Positions 1 to 12,169 of a stretch of 25,619 nt of DNA are shown here, one piece after another (the stretch's first letter is position 1; the number at the start of each line of letters is the position of its first letter). This DNA is from a virus. The DNA lies in the IMG/VR virus record IMGVR_UViG_3300034418_003828, positions 1-25,619 of that record. One strand, 5' to 3'. The position numbers and the translations under genes are program-made. The notes under the pieces are model-generated. The model searched no databases, was not told the DNA's origin, and was given only the letters and a program-made list of their open reading frames with translations.

Positions 1-42
1 AAACATAATGATTGCCAAATTATATTTGTTTTAGTATATATG

Positions 43-80
43 ACCCCTGAGATTACATCAAAGGGGTTTCTTTTTGCCCT
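43..80 (+). terminator. Rho-independent terminator of an upstream operon
   Basis: ACCCCT (43-48) pairs with AGGGGT (62-67) around a 13-nt loop and is followed by a T-rich run (67-75). It probably ends a + strand transcript entering from the left, so the window starts at a transcription-unit boundary. Confidence 0.65.
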
Positions 81-107
81 TTTTTCCATGCCTTTTTGAT
101 ATTTTTG

Positions 108-115
108 TATAAATA
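108..115 (+). promoter_or_regulatory. T4-type late promoter octamer TATAAATA
   Basis: Exact TATAAATA with no recognisable -35 hexamer. By the T4 late rule (start about 6 nt after the octamer), transcription would start near 121, giving an approximately 19-nt leader for the small ORF at 140. The same octamer or a one-base variant recurs before other genes in the window. Confidence 0.55.
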
Positions 116-139
116 AACAGTATACATGGCAGAAACATT

Positions 140-316
140 ATGGCACAAAAATTATACACAATAGAAGAATACTTAGAATCTCTTAAAACACCAAAAGGTG
201 GATATACCAGAGAAACATTACTAACATTGGGTGTTTCATGGCCTCCTAAGAAAGGTTGGAAAAGAGATATCATCAAGGCAGTTAAACAGAACCCTAATTA
301 TATAATCAACACATAA
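140..316 (+). CDS. Small 58-aa phage protein with GGYTR...WPPKKGW motif, function unknown
   Basis: The ORF runs from ATG 140 to TAA 314-316. It begins MAQKLYTIEEYL and has a conserved-looking core: GGYTRETLLTLGVSWPP followed by KKGWKR, then a short basic C-terminus. The pattern of Gly, Trp and Pro resembles small proteins I associate with marine phages, but no function can be given. There is no clear ribosome binding site; a TATAAATA octamer 25 nt upstream would give an approximately 19-nt leader. An ATG at 126 is in another frame and stops after 12 codons. The gene sits between a terminator and the structured non-coding region, and could be cotranscribed with it. Confidence 0.6.
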   Translation: MAQKLYTIEEYLESLKTPKGGYTRETLLTLGVSWPPKKGWKRDIIKAVKQNPNYIINT

Positions 317-740
317 GGTTAGCAGGCCAGATTATAATACTGCTGTGGAAAAAGATATAGGAATATATCACACGCAACATACTGAGACACCCTCCTTGGA
401 TAGTAGAAATCCAGCCTGAAAGATGGAGGTAGGGGCAGAGACTAGAGCACAACACATTTAGTCAAGGATTGGTATAGTGTAAATGTTGATACACGCAAAC
501 ACTGAGCATAAAAATTTGCACAAGTTGGAACGCAGTGCATTACTGTAGAAATACAGGGCCTTTGCAGGTGAGGAGTGAGAAAGAGATCCTTTGCTAACAG
601 TGAAAAAATACCTGCTTCCTTATATGGCTGTGGCGTTACTCACAGAAAGAGGAGGGAACCTGCAATAGGTTCCTTCTGACTGCAACATCATCTACAGAAA
701 GTTCTCAATTATTACTTCTACATGTTGTTGTCTGAATAGA
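317..740 (+). ncRNA. Putative large structured non-coding RNA
   Basis: This stretch holds no credible ORF but many stable hairpins: GATATA/TATATC closed by a GGAA tetraloop (354-369); CCTCC/GGAGG (391-395/425-429) enclosing GGAT..ATCC with an AGTA/GAA internal motif typical of E-loops; CTGTA-GAAA-TACAG (543-556), a GNRA hairpin; CTGTG/CACAG (628-645); a 10-bp stem at 651-677 around GGAACC/GGTTCC; and the long-range GCAACAT/ATGTTGT (682-688/722-728). GCAGGT (564-569) can pair with ACCTGC (610-615). An approximately 16-nt motif, ACACGCAA..CTGAG, occurs twice (370-386, 491-506). Size and phage context recall giant phage RNAs such as GOLLD or ROOL, but I cannot assign a family. The ends are uncertain. 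The rest of the gap to 876 has a perfect AAGTCC/GGACTT hairpin (811-826). Confidence 0.5.
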
Positions 741-876
741 AAAAAACAAATAAATTAGCATCAAATGAAATGTCTGGAATGAAATGAAAGACATTGAAAG
801 TAGATGCGTTAAGTCCTTTAGGACTTGTTACTTGAGTCTAAGTGATAGCAAATTAATGGGAGAATTGTGGGTTAAT

Positions 877-884
877 TATAAATA
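877..884 (+). promoter_or_regulatory. T4-type late promoter octamer TATAAATA
   Basis: Exact TATAAATA, no -35 box. The expected start site (about 890) falls on the ATG of the next gene at 891, implying a leaderless message if this promoter is used. Confidence 0.5.
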
Positions 885-890
885 CTTTTA

Positions 891-1163
891 ATGACACTCA
901 CAGAAAAACAAAAAACACATCTATTAGATCCAAGATTACACAATGAACAACATGGTGAATTCATTAGGAAATGGGTTCATGATAATCAAGCACCTCAACA
1001 TATTGTTCACATATTGCACACATTGGCAACAACTCCCATCAAAGAAACCAAAAAGTTTGTGTTTTATAGGGATGAAATATACACCATGCCTACTCACACT
1101 GAAATATACAAAAAGACCAAAAAAGGCTGGATATTATCACATAAAATCAAGTATAATCCTTAA
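891..1163 (+). CDS. Hypothetical protein, 90 aa, basic
   Basis: I do not recognise this protein. It is basic, rich in His, Lys and Thr (starts MTLTEKQKTHLLD, ends SHKIKYNP), with no signal peptide or membrane segment. The next in-frame Met is near residue 66, so ATG 891 is the only sensible start. No Shine-Dalgarno precedes it; instead TATAAATA lies only 6 nt upstream, suggesting a leaderless transcript or readthrough from further left. It ends just before the promoter of the terminase small subunit gene. An overlapping ORF in another frame (943-1176) looks like a shadow. Confidence 0.6.
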   Translation: MTLTEKQKTHLLDPRLHNEQHGEFIRKWVHDNQAPQHIVHILHTLATTPIKETKKFVFYRDEIYTMPTHTEIYKKTKKGWILSHKIKYNP

Positions 1164-1167
1164 ACTG

Positions 1168-1175
1168 TATAAATA
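1168..1175 (+). promoter_or_regulatory. T4-type late promoter octamer TATAAATA
   Basis: Exact TATAAATA without a -35 box. The predicted start near 1181 gives a leader of about 38 nt carrying the GGAG of the terminase small subunit gene. It probably drives the 1219-4089 gene cluster. Confidence 0.6.
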
Positions 1176-1218
1176 ACACATGCATACAGACTGAGTCTGA
1201 CTTACACTTGGAGCAAAT

Positions 1219-1620
1219 ATGAGTGAGCAAGAAGCCAACAAACAACCAACCTATCAAAAGAAAAACATCAAATATGGTGAAAAAACAGTCATAGGCAGAG
1301 TTGTGGGCAAAAACAAAACAGTGATACCAGAAGATGAGTTTTATCAAATGGCCTGTTTGTTTTCAACTTGGAAAGACTTTTCAGAATATTATGGTGTGCA
1401 TGAAAACACACTGAGATACAATTTTAGTGATTTATACACAAAAGCAAGGCAAACCACTAAAAAGAAATTGCGCCAAAAGATGTTGGAAACAGCACTGAAT
1501 GGTGATAGAACCATGATGATATGGTTAAGTAAACAATGGTTAGACATGAGTGAAACACCTAACCACAGTCAAGGTGAGCAAGTGTTACCATGGAATGACA
1601 ATGAAGACAAAAACCTGTAA
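1219..1620 (+). CDS. Probable terminase small subunit
   Basis: 133 aa, preceded by GGAG 6-7 nt before ATG 1219. The middle (about residues 45-75) reads like a helix-turn-helix: a short acidic helix, FSTWKDFSEYYGVHENTLRY, then a basic stretch. The C-terminal half has the pattern ETALNGDRTMMIWLSKQWL, which resembles the segment found in small terminases of many marine phages (ALxGxxxxxxWLSKxxL). Small terminases recognise the packaging site and load the large subunit ATPase on phage DNA. The position two genes before the large terminase supports the call. What is seen is the motif pattern and synteny; DNA specificity is not visible. Confidence 0.7.
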   Translation: MSEQEANKQPTYQKKNIKYGEKTVIGRVVGKNKTVIPEDEFYQMACLFSTWKDFSEYYGVHENTLRYNFSDLYTKARQTTKKKLRQKMLETALNGDRTMMIWLSKQWLDMSETPNHSQGEQVLPWNDNEDKNL

Positions 1621-1622
1621 GT

Positions 1623-1669
1623 CCTGCACCCAGTCACAGTAAACTCTGAGCTCAGTACTGGTGTGCAGG
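1623..1669 (+). other. Strong hairpin between terminase small subunit and next gene
   Basis: CCTGCAC (1623-1629) pairs with GTGCAGG (1663-1669), and CCAGT (1630-1634) with ACTGG (1657-1661), with one bulged T. The loop contains the palindrome CTGAGCTCAG (1646-1655). No T-tract follows, so it is not a standard terminator. It could be an mRNA processing or stability element, or a packaging-site feature. Confidence 0.5.
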
Positions 1670-1689
1670 CAACCTTTGGAGATATATAG

Positions 1690-1899
1690 ATGAAAATACC
1701 TGATTACTTTAACAAACCCTCAAGTCACAAAACCACAGTGTTCAACACAATGACACTGACTGGTGTTAGTTTGATGTGGGGTATCATGCTGAATTTGATT
1801 TCACCATGGTGGAGCATATTGTGTGTGCTGACTATATTGGTGGGTTATGGTTCAGAAATAGAAGCCAGAAAAATTGACAAAGACAACCTCAGTCTCTAA
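1690..1899 (+). CDS. Small two-helix membrane protein between terminase genes
   Basis: 69 aa, with GGAG (1678-1681) before ATG 1690. Two hydrophobic segments are visible: about residues 18-38 (ending LMWGIMLNLI) and about 41-53 (WWSILCVLTILVG), separated by a short SP turn, with a charged C-terminus (EARKIDKDN). This is compatible with a small inner-membrane hairpin protein. Two-helix phage proteins of this size include holins, but there is no lysis gene next to it and the location between terminase subunits is not diagnostic. The stop codon is directly followed by the terminase large subunit start (TAAATG), so the two are translationally coupled. The function is unassigned. Confidence 0.6.
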   Translation: MKIPDYFNKPSSHKTTVFNTMTLTGVSLMWGIMLNLISPWWSILCVLTILVGYGSEIEARKIDKDNLSL

Positions 1900-3144
1900 A
1901 TGCGTCTCAGCAAGCCTCAGCAAGAAATATCAGATTCAAATGCTAGATTCAAGATTGCGGCTTGTGGCAGAAGATTTGGAAAATCATTCCTATCAATAAA
2001 TGAAATGGCCAAATTTGCCAGAGTGCCAAACAGGCGTGTGCTGTATTTGGCTCCCACATATAGACAGGCAAAAACAGTTATTTGGGATGAACTCAAAAGT
2101 CAACTGTATGCTGTTAATTGGATCAAGAAAGTAAATGAAAGTGACTTAACCATTAGATTGGTTAATAACAGCACCATTGTGATACGCAGTAGTGACAACA
2201 AAGATGCATTGCGTGGTGCCAAGTATGATTACATAGTGTTAGATGAGTGTGCATTCATGGATGCTGATGTATGGTATAGTGTATTGCGTCCAACATTATC
2301 AGACACAGGTGGTCATGCACTGTTTATCACAAGTCCCCTGGGCAGAAATTGGGTATATGATTTGTGGGTAAATGCATCAGTTGAACAAGATTGGCAAGCA
2401 TTTCAATATACCACATTGGCAGGAGGTTTTGTGCCACCAGAAGAAATAGAGGCTGCCAGAAGAGACCTAGATCAAAAGCGTTTTGAACAAGAGTATGAAG
2501 CACAGTTTGTTAATTATGCAGGTGTTATATTCTATGCATATTCAGATGAACACAATCTAAAAGCATATGATATGGGTCAATTTAACCCCAGAACACCCAT
2601 ATACTGTTCAATAGACTTCAATACCTCACCTATCACATGTGGTATTTGGGTCAAATGGCAAGACACTCTGCATGCCATAGATGAAATAGAAATATTTGGC
2701 AGTAACACACTGGAACTGGTGCAAGAAATCAAAAACAGATATGGTGACAGACAGTATGTGGCATTTCCAGATGCAACTGGAAGCAGAACAAACACCAACA
2801 GCATGGGTATGAGTGATCACATCATATTGAGTAACAATGGTTTCAAAGTGATAACAGACAAAACCAATCCCAATGTAAATGATTCAATTGCTTCAGTGAA
2901 TAGTATGTTGTGTAACAGTCTAGGTGAAAGAAAGTTATTCATTGACCCTAAATGCAAAAAAATGCGTGAAAGCATGTTGAAGTATGTGTACAAAGAGGGC
3001 ACCAGAATACCCCTCAAAGACAACATACATGATCACTTTGCAGATGGTATCAGATATATTTGCCACAGAATGTTTCCTGTAAAACAAACACCTATTTCAG
3101 ATGTGCGTCAGACCAGGATGAGTGCAGGCAGAATGATGAGTTAA
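1900..3144 (+). CDS. terL: Terminase large subunit (packaging ATPase/nuclease)
   Basis: 414 aa, typical length. The N-terminal ATPase has a Walker A-type motif GRRFGKS (residues 23-29), Walker B IVLDE (112-116, D115/E116) and the coupling motif ITSP (143-146). The C-terminal RNase H-like nuclease shows the expected acidic residues: D239 in SIDFNTS, D291 in FPDATGSR and D382 in HFADGIRY. The enzyme pumps DNA into the prohead through the portal and cuts concatemers at headful or cos ends. It resembles the Terminase_6 type. ATG 1900 directly follows the previous stop with no separate ribosome binding site, so translation is probably coupled. Unusually, the portal gene does not follow; small genes and an inverted operon intervene. 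Confidence 0.95.
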   Translation: MRLSKPQQEISDSNARFKIAACGRRFGKSFLSINEMAKFARVPNRRVLYLAPTYRQAKTVIWDELKSQLYAVNWIKKVNESDLTIRLVNNSTIVIRSSDNKDALRGAKYDYIVLDECAFMDADVWYSVLRPTLSDTGGHALFITSPLGRNWVYDLWVNASVEQDWQAFQYTTLAGGFVPPEEIEAARRDLDQKRFEQEYEAQFVNYAGVIFYAYSDEHNLKAYDMGQFNPRTPIYCSIDFNTSPITCGIWVKWQDTLHAIDEIEIFGSNTLELVQEIKNRYGDRQYVAFPDATGSRTNTNSMGMSDHIILSNNGFKVITDKTNPNVNDSIASVNSMLCNSLGERKLFIDPKCKKMRESMLKYVYKEGTRIPLKDNIHDHFADGIRYICHRMFPVKQTPISDVRQTRMSAGRMMS

Positions 3145-3152
3145 CATAAATA
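3145..3152 (+). promoter_or_regulatory. T4-type late promoter variant CATAAATA
   Basis: CATAAATA starts directly after the terL stop. The predicted start near 3158 would give a short leader containing AAGGAG (about 3162-3168) before ATG 3175. Confidence 0.45.
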
Positions 3153-3174
3153 ATGTATGTGTAAGGAGAAGCAA

Positions 3175-3468
3175 ATGGCAAAAGACAAAAAATACATAAG
3201 AGCAGGAGATCCCATACAGTTACCACCAAAAGGCTGGATGAGCAACATAAGTGGTAGAAGTGATGGCATCACCTCATTCACAGAAGAATTTGAAAGTCAC
3301 CCAGGTAGAATCATGTTCAAAAAATACATCAAAGCCTGGAGTGAATTAGATGATGTAGAACAAGCACTGAACAAAATTGCATGTACAGATGTATACAAGA
3401 ACTATGCAGATGCAATGAAGTATGGTGTTCAAATATACAACAGAAGAGGTAATCCCAGTGAGTTTTAA
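3175..3468 (+). CDS. Hypothetical protein, 97 aa
   Basis: I do not recognise this gene. The ORF is open from ATG 3157, but ATG 3175 has a good AAGGAG 6-7 nt upstream and gives MAKDKKYIRAGDP, so I prefer it. The protein is charged, with a probable helical C-terminal half (FKKYIKAWSELDDVEQALNK) and the ending YNRRGNPSEF; no membrane segment. It lies between terL and a group of short overlapping genes, behind a late-promoter-like octamer, so it is likely a late-expressed accessory or packaging-associated protein; that is inference from position only. Confidence 0.6.
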   Translation: MAKDKKYIRAGDPIQLPPKGWMSNISGRSDGITSFTEEFESHPGRIMFKKYIKAWSELDDVEQALNKIACTDVYKNYADAMKYGVQIYNRRGNPSEF

Positions 3469-3712
3469 GGATGGCAACTTACCTCCAAAGAACAGCAGTG
3501 AGGGTAAAAAATTAGAAAAGATGGTGTACAACACACCATTCCTCAAAAAGATGAGAGCCAAAAGTCAAGGTGAAAAGTATTCAGACATAGTGAGTGCTGA
3601 TAATTCAGAAGAATACAAGCAGAACTATGACAAAATAGATTGGACTCACAACAGAGATCAAAAAAAGAACTACAGGGTAAAAATAAATGGCAAATACCAA
3701 GATGAAGACTAG
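3458..3712 (+). CDS. Hypothetical protein, 84 aa, GTG start
   Basis: The reading frame is open from an ATG at 3422, but that ATG has no ribosome binding site. GTG 3458 has GAGGT 7 nt upstream, and starting there overlaps the previous gene by 11 nt, a normal coupled overlap. The resulting protein begins MSFKDGNLPPKNSSEGKKLEK and is hydrophilic and charged, with K and D/E throughout and no cysteines or membrane segments. No homologue is recognised. The choice of GTG over ATG is inference from spacing. Confidence 0.5.
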   Translation: MSFKDGNLPPKNSSEGKKLEKMVYNTPFLKKMRAKSQGEKYSDIVSADNSEEYKQNYDKIDWTHNRDQKKNYRVKINGKYQDED

Positions 3713-3893
3713 AACATACAAGTGTTATTGGCGTCCTACCAAACACTGCACCACAGATCATGTGATTAGAAGTTTCACAGACAATGAATTATGGACTGCT
3801 GAACAACAGTGCAAGTACTACTGTGGTAAATGGGGAATATACATGGCAGAAGAACAATATGGAGAAAATGATGAGACACAGAGCAACAACTAG
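3702..3893 (+). CDS. Small cysteine- and tryptophan-containing protein, unknown
   Basis: 63 aa from ATG 3702 (an in-frame ATG at 3687 is also possible). It contains four Cys (within YKCYWRP, KHCTT and QQCKYYCGKWG) and three Trp, which argues that the frame is real rather than a shadow. The Cys spacing might form a small metal-binding or disulfide fold, but this is not a recognised zinc motif. The start overlaps the end of the preceding gene by 11 nt. No function can be assigned. Confidence 0.5.
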   Translation: MKTRTYKCYWRPTKHCTTDHVIRSFTDNELWTAEQQCKYYCGKWGIYMAEEQYGENDETQSNN

Positions 3894-4089
3894 ATACAAG
3901 AATGGTGGTAAGCACAGAGGCAAAACCATCAGTCAAAGTGAAATAAACAGAAGAATAGCACAGAGTTTTGGATACAAACACAGCATCAATCCAGAATTGA
4001 TTGGGGATAAAGGTTCAAATGCACCAAGTGTACCAACACAATCATTTGAAAATCCACATATAGTTGACACAGAAACCATCAAACTATAA
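3868..4089 (+). CDS. Hypothetical basic protein, about 73 aa
   Basis: The frame is open from ATG 3784, but ATG 3868 or 3871 lies just after GGAG (3861-3864) and gives a sensible 26-nt overlap with the previous gene. The protein is strongly basic at the N-terminus (MRHRATTRYKNGGKHRGK), followed by SQSEINRRIAQSFGYKHS and a polar tail. The basic region could bind nucleic acid, but no family is recognised. It is the last gene before the terminator at 4145, closing the terminase gene cluster. Confidence 0.5.
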   Translation: MMRHRATTRYKNGGKHRGKTISQSEINRRIAQSFGYKHSINPELIGDKGSNAPSVPTQSFENPHIVDTETIKL

Positions 4090-4140
4090 GTATATGTGCT
4101 TGTCCTAACTAGCCTATGCTGATATTAAATTAACAGTATA

Positions 4141-4335
4141 AAATAAAAAACCCTCAATGCAGATGTGCAAAGAGGGTTTTTTTATGAAGGTGCCACCCTT
4201 CTGGTTTTTACTACTAATTGAATAAAATAAGTATTAAGTATAGTGGGAGCGTTTGTTTACACAGGTTCTCCTGATATATGCTCCCTGGTTTTTTGTGAGA
4301 AGTGCTAACGCAATACACCTGTATTGCCAACTCAC
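4141..4335 (-). ncRNA. Putative small structured RNA B, from a consensus sigma70 promoter
   Basis: On the - strand the promoter at 4343-4370 predicts a start near 4335. The RNA would begin with TTGTGAG (4337-4331) pairing with CTCACAA (4299-4293), enclosing a perfect GCAATAC-aggt-GTATTGC hairpin (4327-4310). A second stem GGGAGC/GCTCCC (4285-4280/4250-4245) encloses CAGG-AGAA-CCTG (4273-4262). It runs to the bidirectional terminator. Total length is about 195 nt. It has no convincing ORF. The promoter-structure-terminator arrangement is seen directly; that it is transcribed is inference. Confidence 0.55.
4145..4183. terminator. Bidirectional Rho-independent terminator
   Basis: AAAAAACCCTC (4145-4155) pairs with GAGGGTTTTTT (4172-4182), with GCA/TGC pairing inside the loop. 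Because A- and T-runs flank both sides, it can end the + strand terminase cluster and also the - strand small RNA starting near 4335. Confidence 0.85.
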
Positions 4336-4342
4336 AATAATA

Positions 4343-4370
4343 ATTATAACACAGTGTAGAAGTTTGTCAA
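4343..4370 (-). promoter_or_regulatory. Near-perfect sigma70-type promoter
   Basis: Reading the - strand: TTGACA (4370-4365), 16 bp, TATAAT (4348-4343), with TG one base before the -10 (extended -10). This is the best host-type promoter in the window and precedes no protein gene, only the structured region ending at the 4145-4183 terminator. Confidence 0.8.
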
Positions 4371-4382
4371 CCTTTTTTGGCC

Positions 4383-4414
4383 AAAAAAAAGCCACCTTAT
4401 TGATTTGGTGGCTT
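4383..4414 (-). terminator. Rho-independent terminator on the - strand
   Basis: On the - strand AAGCCACC (4414-4407) pairs with GGTGGCTT (4396-4389), followed by a run of T. It ends the putative small RNA A. Confidence 0.8.
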
Positions 4415-4472
4415 GTGTCTACACTTCCATATTGAAGGGTTGTTCTTATGGTAACGCCCTGTATTTGGATTG
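4383..4472 (-). ncRNA. Putative small structured RNA A
   Basis: An approximately 90-nt unit on the - strand between a sigma70-like promoter (4478-4505) and a terminator (4383-4414). CCATA/TATGG (4451-4447/4431-4427) forms a stem, flanked by weaker pairing of ACAC..TCC with GGA..GTGT. It shares AATACAGG and GCGTTA with RNA B and has the same promoter spacing, so the two units may derive from a duplication. No ORF of meaningful length. Confidence 0.45.
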
Positions 4473-4477
4473 TGTTA

Positions 4478-4505
4478 ATAATAGCATCATCTAAACAAAA
4501 GTCAA
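4478..4505 (-). promoter_or_regulatory. Sigma70-like promoter on the - strand
   Basis: TTGACT (4505-4500), 16 bp, TATTAT (4483-4478) on the - strand, located just after the terminator of the glycosyltransferase operon and just before putative small RNA A. Confidence 0.6.
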
Positions 4506-4515
4506 CCATTTTAGT

Positions 4516-4550
4516 CAAAAAAAAGCCCTCTAATGGCTGTAAGAGGGCTT
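4516..4550 (-). terminator. Terminator of the inverted operon
   Basis: On the - strand AAGCCCTC (4550-4543) pairs with GAGGGCTT (4530-4523), followed by eight T. It lies about 70 nt past the stop of the glycosyltransferase gene. Confidence 0.85.
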
Positions 4551-4618
4551 CAATTTGATAACACTGTGTTAAACTAATAACACAAATACATTATAATTTG
4601 GGAAAACATAATGTAATA

Positions 4619-5686
4619 CTATTTACCAGATTTGATAATTTCATACAGTTTTTCACCACTAAAGAATTGATCTAGATGTTGTACCAATTTTGTGTAGTTG
4701 GTCAATCTCTTGCTGAGTTGACTGTGAAAACTGATTTTTGATATTAGATCATTGGCCAATTTGTCTCTGTGTTCTACAGCATTGCCATATGTTTCAGTCC
4801 ATTCACTGGGATACTTACACCATACAGGAAACATTTCTGAATAACTCAGTCTGTCTGGCACCATGGGCACACAACCACACAACACACCTTCATACATGCT
4901 GATACCCAGTGTTTCTTGTGTGTTAGCACTAAACACCACTTTGCTACTGCATAACAAATCATGATATTCTGCTTTGGTTAATGGTGTGCTTTGACATACT
5001 GTATATTCACAGTCTGGCACAGTGTTAGATAACAATTCAAATATGTCTAACTGTTTCTCTGGTGCTAATCTGTGTGGAAACAGCACTCTGTTAGCCCTCA
5101 CCTCAGTGAGTCTTTGTTGTGCAATATGTGGTGCAAGTTCAGTTTTCAAATACTCCATGGGCCAACCCACTTTGTGCATTCTGCCTTTGGGTAACAGTGG
5201 ATATGTGTTACTGAACAAATCACAGTGAAATTGTGTGGCAAAAAAGTTGTGATCATATGTGCTGTACATTGCACATTCTGTATAACCAAACACAGTTTTG
5301 TCTTGAACTCTGCCCAAAAAGTCATGAGGATCATAACTGCCAGCATGCCACATACCACCTATTTTTATTGATATGTTTAACAGATCAGCCATATACTTTA
5401 ACTGTATAACAGTGGGATTCCAAGCATCAGTGTACAAGAAATAATCACCATCTTTAACTGTACCATCTGCAAACAGAGTGGCAATTTGTTTGAGTTGTTC
5501 ACTTTTCCAATAGTTGGTGCCTGAAAAGTTCAAGAATGCACCAGGTGTTGTGTCTTGGGGTGTGTCTGGGGGACCTGATATCACAGTAGTAGGTATGCCA
5601 GCATTTTCCAATTGCTGTGGCAAATATTTCTGCCATTGAGCAGTGTATCTGGTTTCTACTGGTTCAAGTTCTATGAGATATAACAT
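4619..5686 (-). CDS. GT-B fold glycosyltransferase (GT4-like)
   Basis: 355 aa. The C-terminal half has the hallmarks of a GT-B retaining glycosyltransferase: FPHRLAPEKQ (residues 203-212) at the start of the donor domain and ETLGISMYE (258-266), matching the E(x7)E motif that binds the nucleotide-sugar, followed by GCVPMVPDRLSYSEMF. No signal peptide or membrane segment, so it is cytoplasmic. Phage enzymes of this kind glycosylate hypermodified DNA bases, virion proteins or host surface glycans; the acceptor cannot be read from the sequence. GAGGTG lies 8 nt before ATG 5686. It is last in an inverted four-gene operon and overlaps the previous gene by 23 nt. Confidence 0.8.
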   Translation of the reverse strand: MLYLIELEPVETRYTAQWQKYLPQQLENAGIPTTVISGPPDTPQDTTPGAFLNFSGTNYWKSEQLKQIATLFADGTVKDGDYFLYTDAWNPTVIQLKYMADLLNISIKIGGMWHAGSYDPHDFLGRVQDKTVFGYTECAMYSTYDHNFFATQFHCDLFSNTYPLLPKGRMHKVGWPMEYLKTELAPHIAQQRLTEVRANRVLFPHRLAPEKQLDIFELLSNTVPDCEYTVCQSTPLTKAEYHDLLCSSKVVFSANTQETLGISMYEGVLCGCVPMVPDRLSYSEMFPVWCKYPSEWTETYGNAVEHRDKLANDLISKISFHSQLSKRLTNYTKLVQHLDQFFSGEKLYEIIKSGK

Positions 5687-5858
5687 TTAACATCACCTCT
5701 TTCACAGTTTCATCATACAGTACACCATGTGTGCCTGTGCCATAACTGTATCTGTTGGGCATTGTGTATAATGCTTGTTGAACATCTGCATACTGTTTGC
5801 CTAATATGCCCAACAAATACTGTTTCATTTTAATGGTTTTTTCTTGATCACTGGTCAT
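5664..5858 (-). CDS. Hypothetical protein, 64 aa
   Basis: Third gene of the inverted operon. Its ATG (5858) overlaps the end of the upstream gene by 11 nt and its end overlaps the glycosyltransferase start by 23 nt, typical of coupled translation. The protein begins MTSDQEKTIKMKQYLLGILGK and contains YSYGTGTHGVLYDETVKEV; no membrane segment or known motif. The operon context suggests a partner of the glycosyltransferase, but this is only positional. Confidence 0.55.
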   Translation of the reverse strand: MTSDQEKTIKMKQYLLGILGKQYADVQQALYTMPNRYSYGTGTHGVLYDETVKEVMLNVISHRT

Positions 5859-6069
5859 TTTGTGCTAAGAATTCTCTCATGTTCATTGGCTTGGTGTTTG
5901 TTCTTTTCAATTGATCTACCAAACTGACTTCATTTTTGTTTTGTTGTCTGATAGATTCCAGTATGCCATTTGTGCCTCTGTATTCTACTTTATACTGTTC
6001 ATCTTCTCTGTCACAGTATTCTATGATGTCAATTAAGTCTGCTGGGTTTGTGATAATTATGTTGATCAT
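5848..6069 (-). CDS. Hypothetical acidic protein, 73 aa
   Basis: Second gene of the inverted operon, with AAGGAG 6 nt before ATG 6069. It begins MINIIITNPADLIDIIEYC, an amphipathic start, then is strongly charged (DREDEQYKVEYRG, QQNKNEVSLVDQLKR). No recognised family. The clear ribosome binding site and the tight spacing with its neighbours support a real gene. Confidence 0.6.
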   Translation of the reverse strand: MINIIITNPADLIDIIEYCDREDEQYKVEYRGTNGILESIRQQNKNEVSLVDQLKRTNTKPMNMREFLAQNDQ

Positions 6070-6078
6070 GTTTTCTCC

Positions 6079-6480
6079 TTATTGTGCGTTTTCTATCAAT
6101 ATCATCATTAGACGCCATTTGTCTGAATGATTGCTTTTTGTGGCTTTGTTGTATTCTTTGCTTTCTACTTTGAGTTCTACTTTTTTGAGAAAGTCATAGT
6201 CCCATTGTGGTAGAACTTTGTTATAGTGTTGCATACACATTCTGATCAAATCAGTCATGATATCAACATCTATGTTTTTTAAGGGATCAACAAATTTTCT
6301 ACCAAACATGTTTTCAACTGTGTTGTATTCTGCATGTTTGACATTTTGCCATATGTTTTTGTCTACATTGTTTTCAACCAATTCTTCAAAATAGTAATTG
6401 ATTGCATCTTTGACTCTGGGTCTATTCATCAATTTGAATTCTAGATCATTAGTGTCAACTTTTCTTTGTGTTATCTGCAT
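6079..6480 (-). CDS. Hypothetical protein, 133 aa, first gene of inverted operon
   Basis: The ORF is open from ATG 6510, but the promoter -10 lies at 6507-6502, so that start would be outside the sigma70 transcript. ATG 6480 has GGAGG (6492-6488) 7 nt upstream and is preferred. The protein begins MQITQRKVDTNDLEFKLMNR, is charged and probably helical, with IWQNVKHAEYNTVENMFGRK in the middle and MCMQHYNKVLPQWDYDFLKK later. I do not recognise a family. It leads an operon that ends with a glycosyltransferase. Confidence 0.65.
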   Translation of the reverse strand: MQITQRKVDTNDLEFKLMNRPRVKDAINYYFEELVENNVDKNIWQNVKHAEYNTVENMFGRKFVDPLKNIDVDIMTDLIRMCMQHYNKVLPQWDYDFLKKVELKVESKEYNKATKSNHSDKWRLMMILIENAQ

Positions 6481-6501
6481 TGTATTGCCTCCATATAAGT
6501 T

Positions 6502-6530
6502 ATTATACATAGTTTATTTATACAAGTCAA
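6502..6530 (-). promoter_or_regulatory. Sigma70-type promoter with embedded TATAAATA octamer
   Basis: On the - strand TTGACT (6530-6525), 17 bp, TATAAT (6507-6502). The 17-bp spacer contains TATAAATA (6522-6515), the late-type octamer. The inverted operon might therefore be transcribed early from the sigma70 site (start about 6495) and late from the octamer (start about 6509). Confidence 0.65.
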
Positions 6531-6569
6531 CCAAAATTTACAAATAAACTGGTGTAAAATGAACAATTA

Positions 6570-6577
6570 CATAAATA
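6570..6577 (+). promoter_or_regulatory. T4-type late promoter variant CATAAATA
   Basis: CATAAATA, no -35. The predicted start, about G6583, coincides exactly with the first base of an 8-bp stem of the structured RNA that follows. Confidence 0.5.
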
Positions 6578-6582
6578 GTATT

Positions 6583-6700
6583 GTGAGAGCGTGTAATTAC
6601 ATATTGCATTGATATTCTCCTAAGGAACTAGCTCTCACTCAAATAAAATTGCCATTTTGCCCCCTACAAATCTACTCCAATTGGTTTTAGGGGGTTTTTT
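6583..6700 (+). ncRNA. Putative short structured RNA with its own terminator
   Basis: The sequence opens with GTGAGAGC (6583-6590), perfectly complementary to GCTCTCAC (6631-6638), and ends at a terminator where CCCCCTA (6660-6666) pairs with TAGGGGG (6688-6694), followed by six T. The unit of about 118 nt has no ORF and lies between a late-promoter octamer and the separate promoter of the portal gene. It shares GAGCGT..TTACA..TTCTCCT with 4246-4272. Function unknown. Confidence 0.5.
6660..6700 (+). terminator. Rho-independent terminator
   Basis: CCCCCTA (6660-6666) pairs with TAGGGGG (6688-6694), then TTTTTT (6695-6700). It isolates the short RNA from the portal transcription unit. Confidence 0.85.
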
Positions 6701-6720
6701 ACAGTTTTTACCACAATATG

Positions 6721-6728
6721 GATAAATA
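6721..6728 (+). promoter_or_regulatory. T4-type late promoter variant GATAAATA for head genes
   Basis: GATAAATA lies just downstream of a terminator and 40 nt before the portal start. The predicted start near 6734 gives a leader of about 34 nt carrying AGGAG. Confidence 0.55.
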
Positions 6729-6767
6729 AACAATGTTAATTAACAAACTATAGTACCAGGAGAAACC

Positions 6768-8450
6768 TTGGCCAATCAATATTCTGAATTCATTACCTCA
6801 ACGCACAGTCTCTATGACAGATATCAAAAAGAATGGCAGTTATGCATCAACAGTTGGTATGGTGGTGAAGAATACAAAAGAGCAAGATTGCTGAGAGCTT
6901 ATAATGTAGACCTACAAACAGCCTCAGAACAAGTCACCACTTATGTAACAGATGAAAGTGGTGCAGTAGTTGGCAAAAGCAAAGCCAAACTCATGCAGAA
7001 CAGCACAAACAGTTCTAGTGCGGCTGCCAGAGGTGATGATGTTATTGATGGCACCTTTTATGGTGAAAAATTAGATAACACACCACTGTACAACTATGTT
7101 AAATTGGTTGTGGCAGAATACAATGCACTGCTGTTTAGAAACCCACCTCAGAGAACATTACCAGATACCCCAGAAATCAACACATTCCTACAAGATGTAG
7201 ATGGTGAAGAGAATTCAATTGGGGAATTCATGAGTCTAGTAGATATGTACACCACAGTGTTTGGTGTATGTCATGTGGGTTGTTACAAGCCAGCAGGTTC
7301 AGAAATACCAAGATGGAGAATACATACTCCACTAGATATCACAAACTGGGAATATGCATATGACATAGATGGCAACTTGAAACTAAACAAAGTTGCAATC
7401 AAAATAGATGATTCAGATGTGCATGAAGTGTACAGATTAATGACTCCAGAAACCATTGACACAGTGTTTGTGGCCAAAGAAGAAGAAGACTACATACCCC
7501 CACAAATACAAGGCCTCACACAGATAGATGAAGGTGTATTCATGGTTAGCCAAGAAAATGAATTGGGCTACATACCACTTAAAACATTCTATCAAAGCAC
7601 CAAAGTGTTCAACAATGTGGGCACAACAGTTATACAAGATGTTGCCAGCATACAGAGAAGCATATATGGTGACTTAGCAGAGATTTACAGCGCCATAACC
7701 TATGGTTCCCACCCAACATTACTGGTAGATGAAACCACAAGTCAACTCAATGATGGTGCAGTAGGCAGTGAGCCAGGGTCAATTATCACAGTACAAGCAG
7801 GACTTACAGGAGAGCCTGCGTATGTGTATGAATTTAGATCACCACAATTAGACAGTATTCAACAGATCAAAGAACTTATAGACAGCAAAATAGAAAAATT
7901 AAGTCAAATTGCCATGTTACGCAGTGAAGACTTGATCAAAGCCAGCAGAAGTGGTGAACAAATTGAAGTATATGATGACAAATTGTCAGCTCTTATACGC
8001 AGGAAAGCAACAAATTTAGAAAATGGTGAATCAAAACTGTGGGATATCTGGTTTGATTGGACAAATCAACAGAGACCTGCAGATTTTGGTGTATCATATA
8101 ATAGACAGTATAACAAAAAAGCTCTAGAACATGAATTAAATGAAATCAACCTCACAATGAGTGTGTTGGAAAAATATGAAAGCATGATGACTAGAGCCCC
8201 AAGTGAAGAATTTGCCTCAGAGGCAGAAGCCATAGGTAGGGCACAAGAGTTAGGAGGAGATGGTGCTCACAGTCATGTGGAAGATGGTGTTACAGTGTAT
8301 ATGCCATTTAGAACACATGCTGAATATGAGAGTGCTATTGGATTCCAATCAGAATCCATAGATGAGACTTTCAAAGCAGATATGCTGGACAAAGTCAAAC
8401 AGAGACTAGAACAGTTATTGAATGCAAGTTCAACAACCAACAGTCTTTAA
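6768..8450 (+). CDS. Portal protein, TTG start
   Basis: 560 aa, typical of siphovirus portals. Portals form the dodecameric ring at one capsid vertex through which the terminase pumps DNA. The body contains features seen in portals of the DUF4055-like group: YNALLFRNPP near residue 120, a long beta-rich wing, and the helical segment SPQLDSIQQIKELIDSKIEKLSQIA (about 363-387) followed by SGEQIEVYDDKL. Position before scaffold and capsid supports the call. The start is TTG 6768, with AGGAG 5-6 nt upstream; the next in-frame Met is about 75 codons in, too late for a portal. Behind its own late-type promoter. Confidence 0.85.
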   Translation: MANQYSEFITSTHSLYDRYQKEWQLCINSWYGGEEYKRARLLRAYNVDLQTASEQVTTYVTDESGAVVGKSKAKLMQNSTNSSSAAARGDDVIDGTFYGEKLDNTPLYNYVKLVVAEYNALLFRNPPQRTLPDTPEINTFLQDVDGEENSIGEFMSLVDMYTTVFGVCHVGCYKPAGSEIPRWRIHTPLDITNWEYAYDIDGNLKLNKVAIKIDDSDVHEVYRLMTPETIDTVFVAKEEEDYIPPQIQGLTQIDEGVFMVSQENELGYIPLKTFYQSTKVFNNVGTTVIQDVASIQRSIYGDLAEIYSAITYGSHPTLLVDETTSQLNDGAVGSEPGSIITVQAGLTGEPAYVYEFRSPQLDSIQQIKELIDSKIEKLSQIAMLRSEDLIKASRSGEQIEVYDDKLSALIRRKATNLENGESKLWDIWFDWTNQQRPADFGVSYNRQYNKKALEHELNEINLTMSVLEKYESMMTRAPSEEFASEAEAIGRAQELGGDGAHSHVEDGVTVYMPFRTHAEYESAIGFQSESIDETFKADMLDKVKQRLEQLLNASSTTNSL

Positions 8451-8501
8451 TGGAGATATATAAAACTACGCTAACTCCAGGCGAGAACTAAGGAGAAGAT
8501 A

Positions 8502-9365
8502 ATGAGTGAAGATATCACTTTAGATACACCAGTTGCAGGTGAGAATGTGCAACCAGTAAGTACAGATGCTGAAGCAGACACGCAAGTGGAAGCAAAATCT
8601 GAAACAGTTGATGCCTCAAAGGCACCAGCAGTAGAACTGAGAGATGGTAAAATGTTTGTTGATGGTGTGAGAGTTTACACCAGAGATGACACAAACAAAA
8701 TAGCCGCAAATGCCAAAAGAGATGCTGAAAGCAGAATCTTAGAGGATTTGCAAGTAGACAGTTTTGACAAGGTTAAAACAGTTGTAAGTCAATTACAAAG
8801 TGTTGACCCAGAACAAGACAGTCTTAATCTTAACAGTTTGAGAGATGCAGTTAAGAAGCGTGAGCAAACTGTGGAAGAGCTGAGAGCAGAACTTCATGCA
8901 GTAAAAACAGATTACGCTCTTAAAGAACATGTAGGCACACTCAGAGACAACATGCCTTCTAGTTGGGACGCTAACCAGAAACAAGCAGTTGTTGATTTGA
9001 TGAAAGCCAGAGACATGTTGCACTACCAAGATGGCACATTTGCTATCAAAAGTGGTGATGATTTCTTGACTACTGATGGTGAAACACCAGACTATAAGTC
9101 TGCTGTTGAAACAATTGGTAAAACCCTAGGTTTGCCATTTGCCAAGAAAGGTATTGACATGGTTGACTCTGAAAAAGCACCAAGCAAGACTACAGAATCA
9201 GCACCAATAAATGAAAGTTTATTAAAGACTGATCCACTGTACAGAAAGGCTTATGTAGACCTCAGAGAAAAACAAAGATTAAGCAGAGGTCAAATCACTG
9301 ATGCTTTGATTAAAAAAACAATGGACAGTTATGAAATGAACTTGGCTTCCAAGATGTTGAGATAA
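8502..9365 (+). CDS. Probable scaffolding (capsid assembly) protein
   Basis: 287 aa, between portal and major capsid protein, the usual place of a scaffold. The N-terminus is acidic and low complexity (ENVQPVSTDAEADTQVEAK), and the middle has a coiled-coil-like region (about residues 105-145, DAVKKREQTVEELRAELHAVK). Scaffolds guide prohead assembly and are removed before DNA entry. No protease domain is visible. Strong AAGGAG before ATG 8502. In the 51-nt leader, TGGAG (8451-8455) can pair with CTCCA (8475-8479). Confidence 0.7.
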   Translation: MSEDITLDTPVAGENVQPVSTDAEADTQVEAKSETVDASKAPAVELRDGKMFVDGVRVYTRDDTNKIAANAKRDAESRILEDLQVDSFDKVKTVVSQLQSVDPEQDSLNLNSLRDAVKKREQTVEELRAELHAVKTDYALKEHVGTLRDNMPSSWDANQKQAVVDLMKARDMLHYQDGTFAIKSGDDFLTTDGETPDYKSAVETIGKTLGLPFAKKGIDMVDSEKAPSKTTESAPINESLLKTDPLYRKAYVDLREKQRLSRGQITDALIKKTMDSYEMNLASKMLR

Positions 9366-9397
9366 CTGATTCAAAACGCTAGATAAAGGAGAAAATT

Positions 9398-10357
9398 ATG
9401 GCGGCAGTAGGAACTACCTCATTAACTTCTTTGTATGAAGACATTGTTGCAGACCTTATTCCATATTATGATAATGCGGTCTTGCTACCAAACCCTTCAC
9501 TTATTGTGAACTCATACAACTTAGAAGGAACAGTGGGGAACCAAGTAAAAATTCCTGTAACCAATTCATGGGGTTCAGGTAACTCTTCAATAGGAGAGAA
9601 CACAGCAATTATTACTAACGCAGAAGACAACTTTGGTCCTTCAAATGTTAGTTTAAGTGTTAACAAAAGAGGCGCAGGTTCTAAAGTATCAAATGAATCT
9701 TTAGAAGATGTTCCAGGAACAGTTGCACAAGCAACTACAACAAGATTAGCAAGAGCTATTGCACAAGGTACTGATGTAGCAGGATTTAGAGTCATGCTTT
9801 CAGGATCAGAAACAGCAATGACAGACATTGCTAACATTAATGTTACTAATGATGGTTACATTAACTCAGAACTAACAGGTGCTGACTTGGCAGTTGTGTT
9901 CTCACCAGAAGCAGGTGGTTATGCTATGAAGCGTCAACCAACTGTTAAAATGTTTGAAGACATTGACACTGATGCAGTAGAATTTGTTGCAACAGTGAGA
10001 AATGGTTTTGCACAGATCAAATCTGATTACATCAGAGCTGTTGCAACTTCAAATGTTATTGGTGCGGCTGCTTCAATCAGTGCAACACTTGACCACTTTG
10101 CAACTTCAGTTGCTAACTTAAGAAATGTAAATGCACCAACAGATGCTGGTGGATTCTACATTGCTTGTGTTACTCCAGGTCAAGAATTAGCACTAAGCAA
10201 AGAGCTTAATGGTGTTGGTGGAATCAGCAGTGGTTCTATTGGTTCTGTTGCTCAGTTAGCGGCTAATGATGCATTATTGCAAGGTTTAATCTCTGTAGCA
10301 ATTGGCTGTAGATTTGTTAGATCAAACAACTTACCAAGAGACTTACTCACAGCGTAA
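9398..10357 (+). CDS. Major capsid protein (HK97-fold expected)
   Basis: 319 aa. It follows the scaffold and has the composition expected of a capsid protein: Ala/Val/Thr/Asn rich and few Cys. The N-terminus (TTSLTSLYEDIVADLIPYYD) and the beta-rich stretch NQVKIPVTNSWGSG resemble coat proteins of marine phages. AAGGAG 7 nt upstream is one of the strongest ribosome binding sites here. Codon use is shifted to T-ending codons (GCT, TCT, GTT) relative to neighbours, which fits very high expression. No N-terminal delta domain or protease gene is evident, so scaffold function is probably separate. Confidence 0.85.
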   Translation: MAAVGTTSLTSLYEDIVADLIPYYDNAVLLPNPSLIVNSYNLEGTVGNQVKIPVTNSWGSGNSSIGENTAIITNAEDNFGPSNVSLSVNKRGAGSKVSNESLEDVPGTVAQATTTRLARAIAQGTDVAGFRVMLSGSETAMTDIANINVTNDGYINSELTGADLAVVFSPEAGGYAMKRQPTVKMFEDIDTDAVEFVATVRNGFAQIKSDYIRAVATSNVIGAAASISATLDHFATSVANLRNVNAPTDAGGFYIACVTPGQELALSKELNGVGGISSGSIGSVAQLAANDALLQGLISVAIGCRFVRSNNLPRDLLTA

Positions 10358-10374
10358 GGTAATTAGGGGATAAT

Positions 10375-10935
10375 ATGGCTTTTATAACAGCAGGTGGATC
10401 AGTAATAAGTTACGCAGAAGCAGTTGATGTGAGAAATCTTGATCAAAGACTGTTTGAATCTAATGAGATTGATTTTGCTAATGTGCCTGATGCCCCTGGC
10501 AGTCTAGATGACTATGTTGAAGACTTGGCCCAAAGAACAACTGATAGAATTAATGCTAAAATTAAGGCTAACAGTAAATGGCCACAGTACTTGAGCTATG
10601 CTGGTATCAGTTTTGATGGTATAAGCAATATACCTGATTTTGATCCCAACAAAATAGTTTCTAGAAAACAAGATTTTACAGACATGTGTGCTTTTGGTGT
10701 ATTGTACATGTATTTGTTGCCTAGGATTGCTGACTTTGGTAATCCAGAAAGCAGTGAAGTGCAAAAAATACAATACTATGAAAGGCGTTTCAATGAAATG
10801 TTTGCTGAATTAATGAGTGATTTCACTTGGTATGATGCAGACAATTCAGGTTCAGTTACAGATTCAGAAAGAATGGTAACTTATCAGCCTACAAGACGCA
10901 CAAGAAGTAAAAGAAGTATTGCTAGGGTATCATAA
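10375..10935 (+). CDS. Head-tail connector (gp6-like) with EF-hand-type loop
   Basis: 186 aa directly after the capsid gene, the position of the HK97 gp6-type adaptor that docks under the portal. The middle is helical (YVEDLAQRTTDRINAKIK; DMCAFGVLYMYLLPRIADF). Near the C-terminus DADNSGSVTDSE (residues 154-165) matches the 12-residue EF-hand calcium loop: D1, D3, S5, G6, V8, E12. The tail end is strongly basic (RRTRSKRSIARVS). Calcium binding would be structural; this is inferred from the motif only. Confidence 0.65.
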   Translation: MAFITAGGSVISYAEAVDVRNLDQRLFESNEIDFANVPDAPGSLDDYVEDLAQRTTDRINAKIKANSKWPQYLSYAGISFDGISNIPDFDPNKIVSRKQDFTDMCAFGVLYMYLLPRIADFGNPESSEVQKIQYYERRFNEMFAELMSDFTWYDADNSGSVTDSERMVTYQPTRRTRSKRSIARVS

Positions 10936-10937
10936 AC

Positions 10938-11330
10938 ATGGCATTCAGAGATGATCTCAAAGCAAACTTAGATGTAGCACTTAGTGGTACAAATGTCAGT
11001 GTAAGTGCAGAATTGCCTTTCACTAGTTCAGGTGAAGCTCTACATATGAAAAATATGAAGAAAGTTTACTTGGATGAAGACAACATTCTAAGAGAGCCAC
11101 TGGTTGAAAGTTTAGACTTTGATCCAGTTGAGAACATTGTGAGAACAGTGACTGGATATCTGGTTATAGATGCTAAAAACCCAATAAGTGACATTGATGT
11201 TATCACAGACAGAATTATCAACAGCAAAAATGCTGTTAGTAATCAAATTAGCAGAGATTGTGAAATGACTACAAGTTTTGAAGGTGATAAATTGGTGTTT
11301 CAGTTTGATTTTGAATTTACAACAATATAA
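10938..11330 (+). CDS. Probable tail terminator or neck protein
   Basis: 130 aa, starting 2 nt after the stop of the connector gene. It starts MAFRDDLKANLDVALSG and ends in alternating beta-like FEGDKLVFQFDFEFTTI. Its position between connector and major tail protein, its length and its alpha/beta pattern fit a tail terminator (gpU-like) that caps the tube before joining to the head, but no diagnostic motif is seen. A head-closure protein is the main alternative. Confidence 0.45.
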   Translation: MAFRDDLKANLDVALSGTNVSVSAELPFTSSGEALHMKNMKKVYLDEDNILREPLVESLDFDPVENIVRTVTGYLVIDAKNPISDIDVITDRIINSKNAVSNQISRDCEMTTSFEGDKLVFQFDFEFTTI

Positions 11331-11342
11331 AGGAGATTAGCA

Positions 11343-11825
11343 ATGGCTAAAATAACAGTAAATGAAACAGCAAGTTTTGTTTCACTAGATATTAATGCAA
11401 GTGGCTCATTTGCTAACGCAAATGTGGCTATGGCTGATACAGCAAATGTGCTGACAGTGCCTGCATTACAGGATGTAACTATTAATGCTACTCCAGGTAC
11501 ATTTACTTGGGAACAGTTAGATAGTTTAAGCCAACAAGTTGTTACAACTCCTAGTACCAATTCATTAGATATGAATATGGTGTTAGATGATACTGCATTC
11601 TTTACAGGTGCAGGATCTACTTTAGGATTATGGGACATCACCAATAATAAAACCAAAGCATACTTTAGGTTGAATATGAATGGTGAGTCTGCAGGAGACT
11701 TCTACATTGAAGGTGAAGGATATTTAAGTGGCTTGGCCATGACAGTATCACCAACTGCACCTGTATGGGTCAGTCCTATGAGTATCTTAGTTGATGGCAA
11801 TTATGTACAAAGTGCATACGCTTAA
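11343..11825 (+). CDS. Major tail tube protein
   Basis: 160 aa, with AAGGAG 7 nt before ATG 11343. It is beta-rich and rich in Ala, Thr and Asn, with few charged residues (SFANANVAMADTANVLTVP), and contains the tube-like segments TNNKTKAYFRLNM and GDFYIEGEGYLSGLAMTV. The gene order (connector, terminator, tube, chaperones, tape measure) strongly supports the call. A terminator right after it (11853-11878) is typical for this very abundant protein. Confidence 0.75.
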   Translation: MAKITVNETASFVSLDINASGSFANANVAMADTANVLTVPALQDVTINATPGTFTWEQLDSLSQQVVTTPSTNSLDMNMVLDDTAFFTGAGSTLGLWDITNNKTKAYFRLNMNGESAGDFYIEGEGYLSGLAMTVSPTAPVWVSPMSILVDGNYVQSAYA

Positions 11826-11852
11826 TATTTAGGTATAGAACTTGAAAAGTTT

Positions 11853-11885
11853 GTTAGCAGGGGTAAAACCCTGCTAACTCTTATA
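11853..11885 (+). terminator. Hairpin terminator after the tail tube gene
   Basis: GTTAGCAGGG (11853-11862) and CCCTGCTAAC (11869-11878) form a perfect 10-bp stem with a 6-nt loop, followed by TCTTATAT. The weak T-tract suggests partial termination, lowering downstream expression relative to the tube protein. Confidence 0.7.
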
Positions 11886-11896
11886 TAGGAGCAACT

Positions 11897-12169
11897 ATGT
11901 TAACAGACAAACAAGTGGAAGTGCTTAAAAGTGTCAGTGTTCAACAGAAATTTCATGAGAATTGTGTACATGGTGATAACAAACATTTCACATTGTGCAA
12001 AGTGGCAGTAGATGCAGATGTTATTGCAGAACACTTGGGCATAAAAAAGCCAAAATCCAAAAAACAAATAAATATAGATATAGAGAAAGAACATGCAGAT
12101 ATGGAACAAACTCACTCATCAGGAGATCTTGAAGACTCTGGAGATGGAGATAGCAAAGAGCAAGAGTGA
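11897..12169 (+). CDS. Hypothetical protein, 90 aa, acidic C-terminus
   Basis: AGGAG precedes ATG 11897. The N-terminal part is helical and contains C and H residues (FHENCVHGDNKHFTLCKVAVD), which could form a small metal site, though no standard motif is present. It is followed by EHLGIKKPKSKKQINI and an acidic, Asp/Ser-rich tail. It lies between tail tube and tail chaperone genes. Function unknown. Confidence 0.6.
   Translation: MLTDKQVEVLKSVSVQQKFHENCVHGDNKHFTLCKVAVDADVIAEHLGIKKPKSKKQINIDIEKEHADMEQTHSSGDLEDSGDGDSKEQE

Follow-up and report, generated by a model that had tools for sequence, protein, structure and literature searches.

Small RNAs (sRNAs) encoded by phages are known mostly from phages of model bacteria. 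VpdS of phage VP882 and PreS are reported to act in trans on host and/or phage mRNAs, and the OOP RNA of lambda is a short RNA, transcribed from its own promoter, that is antisense to cII (PMC12197685). CfrI is antisense to psbA, and wcaG, PhotoRC-II and glnA are Rfam RNAs of T4-like cyanophages (PMC9964418, PMC12197685). The locus analyzed here lies in a 25.6-kb virus record whose structural genes form a module on the plus strand (the whole stretch is referred to as the window). Read from the sequence, positions 4505-4383 (unit A) and 4370-4145 (unit B) of the minus strand are two tandem modules, each made up of a predicted sigma70 promoter, a short RNA and an intrinsic terminator. Both resemble OOP in having their own promoter but, unlike OOP, they overlap no gene on the opposite strand, the plus operon ending at 4089, and a cis-antisense RNA of the OOP or CfrI type was rejected on these grounds.

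A nucleotide search of the window against 50,697 phage records gave no match, and the small-RNA region showed no meaningful similarity to phage records either. The only matches of its portal among phage records were pelagiphages and phage DSL-LC06, at only about 23% identity. The relatives used for comparison are metagenomic contigs, 12 of them retrieved via the terminase, more via a terminase profile and 73 via a portal profile; the closest by both portal (71%) and major head protein (82%) is contig L022. A search of bacterial genomes for portal relatives, intended to find the host, returned none. The features that frame the locus are as follows.

1900-3144, plus strand: large terminase (Terminase_6N / large terminase families)
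6510-4619, minus strand: operon of four ORFs, with promoter TTGACT-N17-TATAAT at 6530-6502
4551-4518, minus strand: terminator of this protein operon, directly before promoter A
6721-6728, plus strand: putative late promoter element GATAAATA of the portal gene, T4-type
6768-8450, plus strand: portal gene, structural module
9398-10357, plus strand: major head protein, structural module

Every minus-strand cassette in this region has its own promoter and terminator, and the interval 4090-4618, beyond the end of the convergent plus operon, contains no supported plus-strand gene. The first-pass annotation had held that the minus strand offers no protein genes for such promoters to serve. This had to be abandoned, since the four-ORF operon adjoins the units upstream and, in several relatives, the cassette that follows the small RNA is a protein gene. 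The ORF at 4619-5686 (minus strand) encodes a 355-aa protein with relatives at about 50-60% identity among the 80 listed of 153 viral contigs, some of them longer than 100 kb, and without a match of note in Pfam, PHROGs, NCBIfam or PDB.

The elements of the two units, in the direction of transcription, are:

4505-4478, minus strand: promoter A, TTGACT (4505-4500), N16, TATTAT (4483-4478), extended -10 (TGC), 10/12
4472-4383, minus strand: predicted RNA A, about 90 nt, terminator stem at 4414-4389 and T run to 4383
4370-4343, minus strand: promoter B, TTGACA (4370-4365), N16, TATAAT (4348-4343), extended -10 (TGT), 12/12
4336-4145, minus strand: predicted RNA B, about 190 nt, ending in the terminator at 4182-4145
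4182-4145, both strands: predicted bidirectional terminator, ending RNA B and the convergent plus operon

Promoters and terminators were called as consensus matches, not mapped ends, and a module was defined as a promoter of at least 10/12 followed by a terminator within 60-260 nt, with 300 dinucleotide shuffles as the control. The window contains two such modules, against a shuffle mean of 0.037, and a single shuffle in 300 reaches two, so that the tandem arrangement first proposed for this region lies far above chance. About half of the 22 relatives scanned likewise carry one module, and their shuffles almost none. Promoter B, flanked by AAAAAAGG, is the only 12/12 sigma70 match in positions 1-12000, and the flank AAAATGGTTGAC of promoter A recurs in L237 and L239, in each case at the promoter that comes first on the minus strand. 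Because the stem at 4182-4145 is T-flanked on both strands, the terminator would also serve the plus operon; a near-identical terminator sequence, CCCTCAAAGCAGATGTGCAATGAGGG, is found in L239. Coding potential was rejected for both units, as the first-pass annotation had anticipated: RNA A has no ORF of 8 codons, and RNA B has no conserved ORF, its GTG frame ending after 33, 14 and 21 codons in three homologues. A candidate third unit (4617-4518), with ATTACA-N16-TATAAT at 4617-4590 followed by a hairpin and the terminator at 4551-4518, folds well (z -5.1); it was set aside for its weak -35 and more probably forms the 3' end of the operon of protein genes.

The evidence for an RNA under selection comes from unit B. 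When the terminator is left out, the fold of its two compound hairpins is better than that of shuffled sequences (z -2.97), and upstream of the terminator the RNA can be divided into three parts:

4336-4293, minus strand: H1, a 44-nt bulged 5' hairpin (UGUGAGUUGGCAAUACAGGUGUAUUGCGUUAGCACUUCUCACAA), homologous in L239 and L237 and with a paralogue in unit A2 of L239, L209 and L218
4285-4245, minus strand: H2, a hairpin with the stem GGGAGC ... GCUCCC
4244-4217, minus strand: unpaired linker containing UACUUA twice, with AUACUUA in L239 and L237

Homologues of B are few, comprising the window with the near-identical contig L004, and units in L239 (from 9727) and L237 (from 1202), both uncultured relatives found by the portal profile. 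L004 differs from the window at two positions in B, both unpaired in the predicted fold. In L239 and L237, the unit lies on the minus strand between the portal gene and a homologue of the plus gene 3784-4089 (homology judged by eye from the common C-terminus VETIKL / VDTETIKL), matching the window, and both loci lack the minus-strand operon that is inserted in the window. The promoters are closely similar, with the spacer, -10 and +1 region of L239 nearly identical to those of window B, and TATAAT is followed by GTGAGTTGGCAATCCGGGTGGATTGTATTAGCACTTCTCAC in L239 and L237 and by GTGAGTTGGCAATACAGGTGTATTGCGTTAGCACTTCTCAC in the window. H1 is common to all three (E about 1e-13). The H2 stem, in turn, has had its sequence replaced with the pairing kept (GGGAGC/GCUCCC in the window, GUUAGG/CCUAAC in L239 and GAGCAC/GUGCUC in L237) and is followed by AUACUUA in each case. 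With the hairpin model R2, matches at 60-63 bits were obtained in the window, L237, L239 (two), L209 and L218, the next best reaching 22 bits in the 989 kb scanned; since these six hairpins are the training set, the score separates them from the background and is not an independent test. Unit B itself scores 61 bits, a full-length match to the bulged hairpin with its pairs kept and, given that B belongs to the training set, the weight rests on the pairs that changed on both sides. In the R2 alignment, 100% of cells are paired and 3 of the 11 pairs changed on both sides, against at most 1 in slid controls. The loss of the stem pairings in homologues had been named beforehand as the outcome that would speak against the proposal, and the covariance check on the relatives found the pairs conserved. 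Judged from this covariation among homologues, unit B contains a selected RNA structure. A search of 4227 Rfam models at gathering and permissive thresholds gave only weak matches, below the threshold of every family. On this comparative evidence, RNA B belongs to a previously uncatalogued RNA family with a preserved fold. Its apparent novelty is that of an uncatalogued, structure-conserved RNA, phage-encoded sRNAs being already known as a general kind.

The promoter pattern of unit B led to a second RNA type in related contigs (model R1), with the layout of a 5' hairpin, a hairpin with a variable stem and a loop that often includes AUGUGURG, a linker that often includes UACUUAU, and a terminator. 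It was found at nine loci near terminase and portal genes (L007, L008, L010, L014, L016, L022, L127, L192 and L199), five of them with UACUUA(U). The R1 alignment was fitted to its model; pairing holds in 91% of its cells, and both sides have changed in 28 of 35 pairs. Shuffles gave 71% paired cells and a mean of 13 such pairs, and slid controls no more than 49% and 16. The closest relative, L022, has an R1-type RNA at the position, on the strand and with the promoter type seen in the window (34.6 bits; E = 6e-5 / 5e-4). Membership of unit B in R1 was rejected, as the B region scores only 8 bits; the best R1 score in the window is 20 bits, for the terminator region 4628-4519. As RNA B has no R1 match, any kinship between the two types is argued from promoter, layout and UACUUA, and we conclude that predicted RNAs of different types occupy comparable slots. 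In eight of the nine contigs (the exception being L022), a gene for a 49-aa protein (MTPYEIRLELLKLA... / MTPYEIRLELLKLAFDIL...) stands just before the R1 RNA. This protein, which has no Pfam or PHROGs match, is conserved in L007, L008, L010, L011, L014, L016, L127, L192 and L199, and in L011 its gene is followed only by a promoterless hairpin and a terminator. Another possible RNA lies behind strong promoters at 2849-3020 of L007 (plus strand) and 3470-3200 of L010 (minus strand), with GGAAGAAGTA ... ATGTGAAAAAGTCCAA / ATATGAAAAAGTCCAA.

RNA A gave a different picture. Its fold is better than that of shuffles with the terminator (z -3.09) and hardly so without it (z -0.63), and neither a structure beyond the terminator nor a homologous RNA in the relatives was found. 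Homology to the L022 RNA (AAGTGTAGACAC versus AAGTGTGGACAC) was rejected, since the score of 49 lies below the best of 200 shuffles (52) and largely reflects the common promoter. The first-pass annotation had proposed a duplication on the basis of a motif shared by A and B, AATACAGG..GCGTTA. The motif is real, B having 6 nt more between the halves, but because the similarity has p = 0.002 for chosen 5' pieces and 0.06-0.16 for longer ones, a duplication in the window is only suggestive. The tandem units of L239 fit such an origin better. There, a second unit (A2) lies upstream of the B unit, with the B promoter directly behind the A2 terminator as in the window.

L239 9885-9735, L218 from 588 and L209 from 474, all minus strand: unit A2, a nearly invariant predicted RNA of about 150 nt

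Its 5' hairpin is paralogous to that of B: of 45 aligned columns, 23 are invariant, and three pairs of the inner stem differ on both sides. Since both units carry this same hairpin, the L239 units look like duplicates. A2 further contains a second hairpin (GATTATAAC..GTTATAATC) and an element GCCCAACTCGGGC. RNA A occupies the place that the first promoter has in L239 and L237, and may be either a duplicate of B that has decayed or an sRNA of another kind.

The T4 late promoter has the sequence TATAAATA, which the element upstream of the portal gene resembles. In nearly all of about 29 relatives, an ATAAATA core, mostly as GATAAATA, stands upstream of the portal gene; as the motif is no more frequent in the window as a whole than expected by chance, the late-promoter argument rests on position and conservation. 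The element is conserved at a distance of about 30-80 nt from the portal gene, and the phages concerned are, by the proteins examined, no close relatives of T4. This suggests that a gp55-like late sigma factor may be encoded outside the fragment. With such an element at the late portal gene and sigma70 elements at A and B, both units are assigned to the sigma70 (early) class, which supports, without proving, their expression before or independently of the late program. The proposal of early small RNA genes with host-type promoters is upheld as to the promoters, which are distinct from GATAAATA and fit early expression, and is weaker as to A, with neither a homologue nor a structure beyond its terminator. 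In L005, five 12/12 promoters with similar spacers (5409, 6534, 7369, 8286 and 8686) lie on the minus strand of the terminase-portal block, most with a Shine-Dalgarno-like sequence and then a start codon behind them, which suggests an array of early-gene cassettes.

We consider it fairly probable that A and B are two adjacent phage sRNA genes transcribed by sigma70 polymerase at a variable cassette site, with B a structured, trans-acting sRNA. The comparison with relatives establishes the predicted gene boundaries, the homology and structure of B, the synteny and the promoter classes; the synthesis of the RNAs, its timing, and base pairing by B are what we infer. Host sigma70 RNA polymerase would transcribe A and B from separate strong extended -10 promoters, and each RNA would end at its own intrinsic terminator. 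These promoters and terminators place the units in an early or host-dependent class and not in the late class driven by GATAAATA. Within RNA B, H1 may provide stability and/or bind a partner, H2 may act as a hairpin whose sequence is free to change, and the U-tailed terminator would close the molecule. Conservation and accessibility coincide in the H1 bulge and loop and in the linker with UACUUA, the latter being the best candidate seed for pairing with mRNA. A duplex-energy target scan of phage start regions returned the antisense of the RNA itself as the top match and the rest without pattern. UACUUA could pair with UAAGUA just after the stop of the neighboring plus gene in the window, L237 and L239, a short and AU-rich match. 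A conserved non-coding motif, TGTCCTAACTWGCCTA, is also present between the plus-gene stop and the convergent terminator, at about 4093-4118 (plus strand) of the window and in L239, L237 and L223. The site near the terminase and portal genes would be a variable cassette slot, filled in relatives by sRNAs of other types or by genes for small proteins.

Other readings of the locus were weighed against that of sRNA genes. The units could be vestigial cassettes, left after the loss of protein genes and giving short RNAs without a function of their own. In L008, L010, L014, L192 and L209, the cassette after the sRNA is indeed a promoter with a protein gene, the protein mRNAs of L011 begin with GTAGC..GCTAC hairpins at their 5' ends, and RNA A lacks structure and homologues. 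Vestiges would, however, not keep paired stems, and B has kept its 44-nt hairpin, in which changes compensate each other when the window, L237/L239 and the paralogous A2 are compared, as the R1 type has its strong covariation; the reading is thus rather unlikely for the locus, and a serious competitor for unit A alone. Another reading is a sponge or decoy, in which the bulged hairpin would titrate a host RNA-binding protein, a nuclease or a host sRNA rather than pair with mRNA. Conservation in B is highest in a paired, bulged hairpin whose 3' bulge is itself conserved, which would suit a site bound by protein, and the promoter of B is strong. Yet the unpaired UACUUA is conserved too, and a search of bacterial genomes, covering 84,980 species genomes, did not find the H1 pattern (one fairly strict pattern), which leaves mimicry of a host RNA by the hairpin unsupported and led us to reject it. 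We regard a sponge or decoy as unlikely.

The arrangement of the locus could also be explained by a cis-acting boundary, in which minus-strand transcription and terminators insulate convergent operons and the RNAs are by-products. Unit B does end in a bidirectional terminator at a convergent junction, and terminators insulate every cassette, but an insulator needs no conserved, covarying 5' hairpin, and in L127, L016 and L199 the R1 unit points the same way as the portal gene, making this very unlikely. The phi29 pRNA is an early RNA of similar length, and that likeness, together with the proximity to the terminase and portal genes in many relatives, would suit a structural RNA of the DNA-packaging motor. 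We hold this to be highly improbable, as the slot contains different RNA types, many portal relatives are without such a module, and the terminase belongs to ordinary large-terminase families, which need no RNA.

If the sRNA reading is extended to the whole clade, the terminase-portal region might be a dedicated slot where sRNA genes (B/A2, R1 and further types, in some cases as tandem units) duplicate and are exchanged. It would be the RNA equivalent of loci for accessory early proteins and would serve to reprogram or disarm the host early in infection; this is offered tentatively, as a possible but less than even prospect. The locus would add, for a clade of uncultured phages, structured RNA families that Rfam lacks; their promoter classes predict timing, and the covariance models can find more members. 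Should the RNAs act in trans, they would give access to the host and to early takeover for phages that only metagenomes have revealed. The sRNA family is well supported, and its regulatory role is a candidate one.

Compared with described systems, A and B are short phage RNAs like VpdS and PreS, which have cultured hosts and known partners (Hfq, dnaN). They share with CfrI and the cyanophage Rfam RNAs that they are putative non-coding RNAs of aquatic phages; CfrI is antisense, and wcaG and glnA are cis-regulatory, unlike A and B, which reach no Rfam threshold. With the phi29 pRNA they have in common that they are phage-encoded, probably early and of similar length, but a pRNA of this type was rejected, given no Rfam match and a terminase of the Terminase_6N / large terminase families. 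By their sequence organization, A and B fit best the general kind of the phage-encoded intergenic sRNA gene, with a predicted promoter of its own and an intrinsic terminator around a short non-coding stretch.
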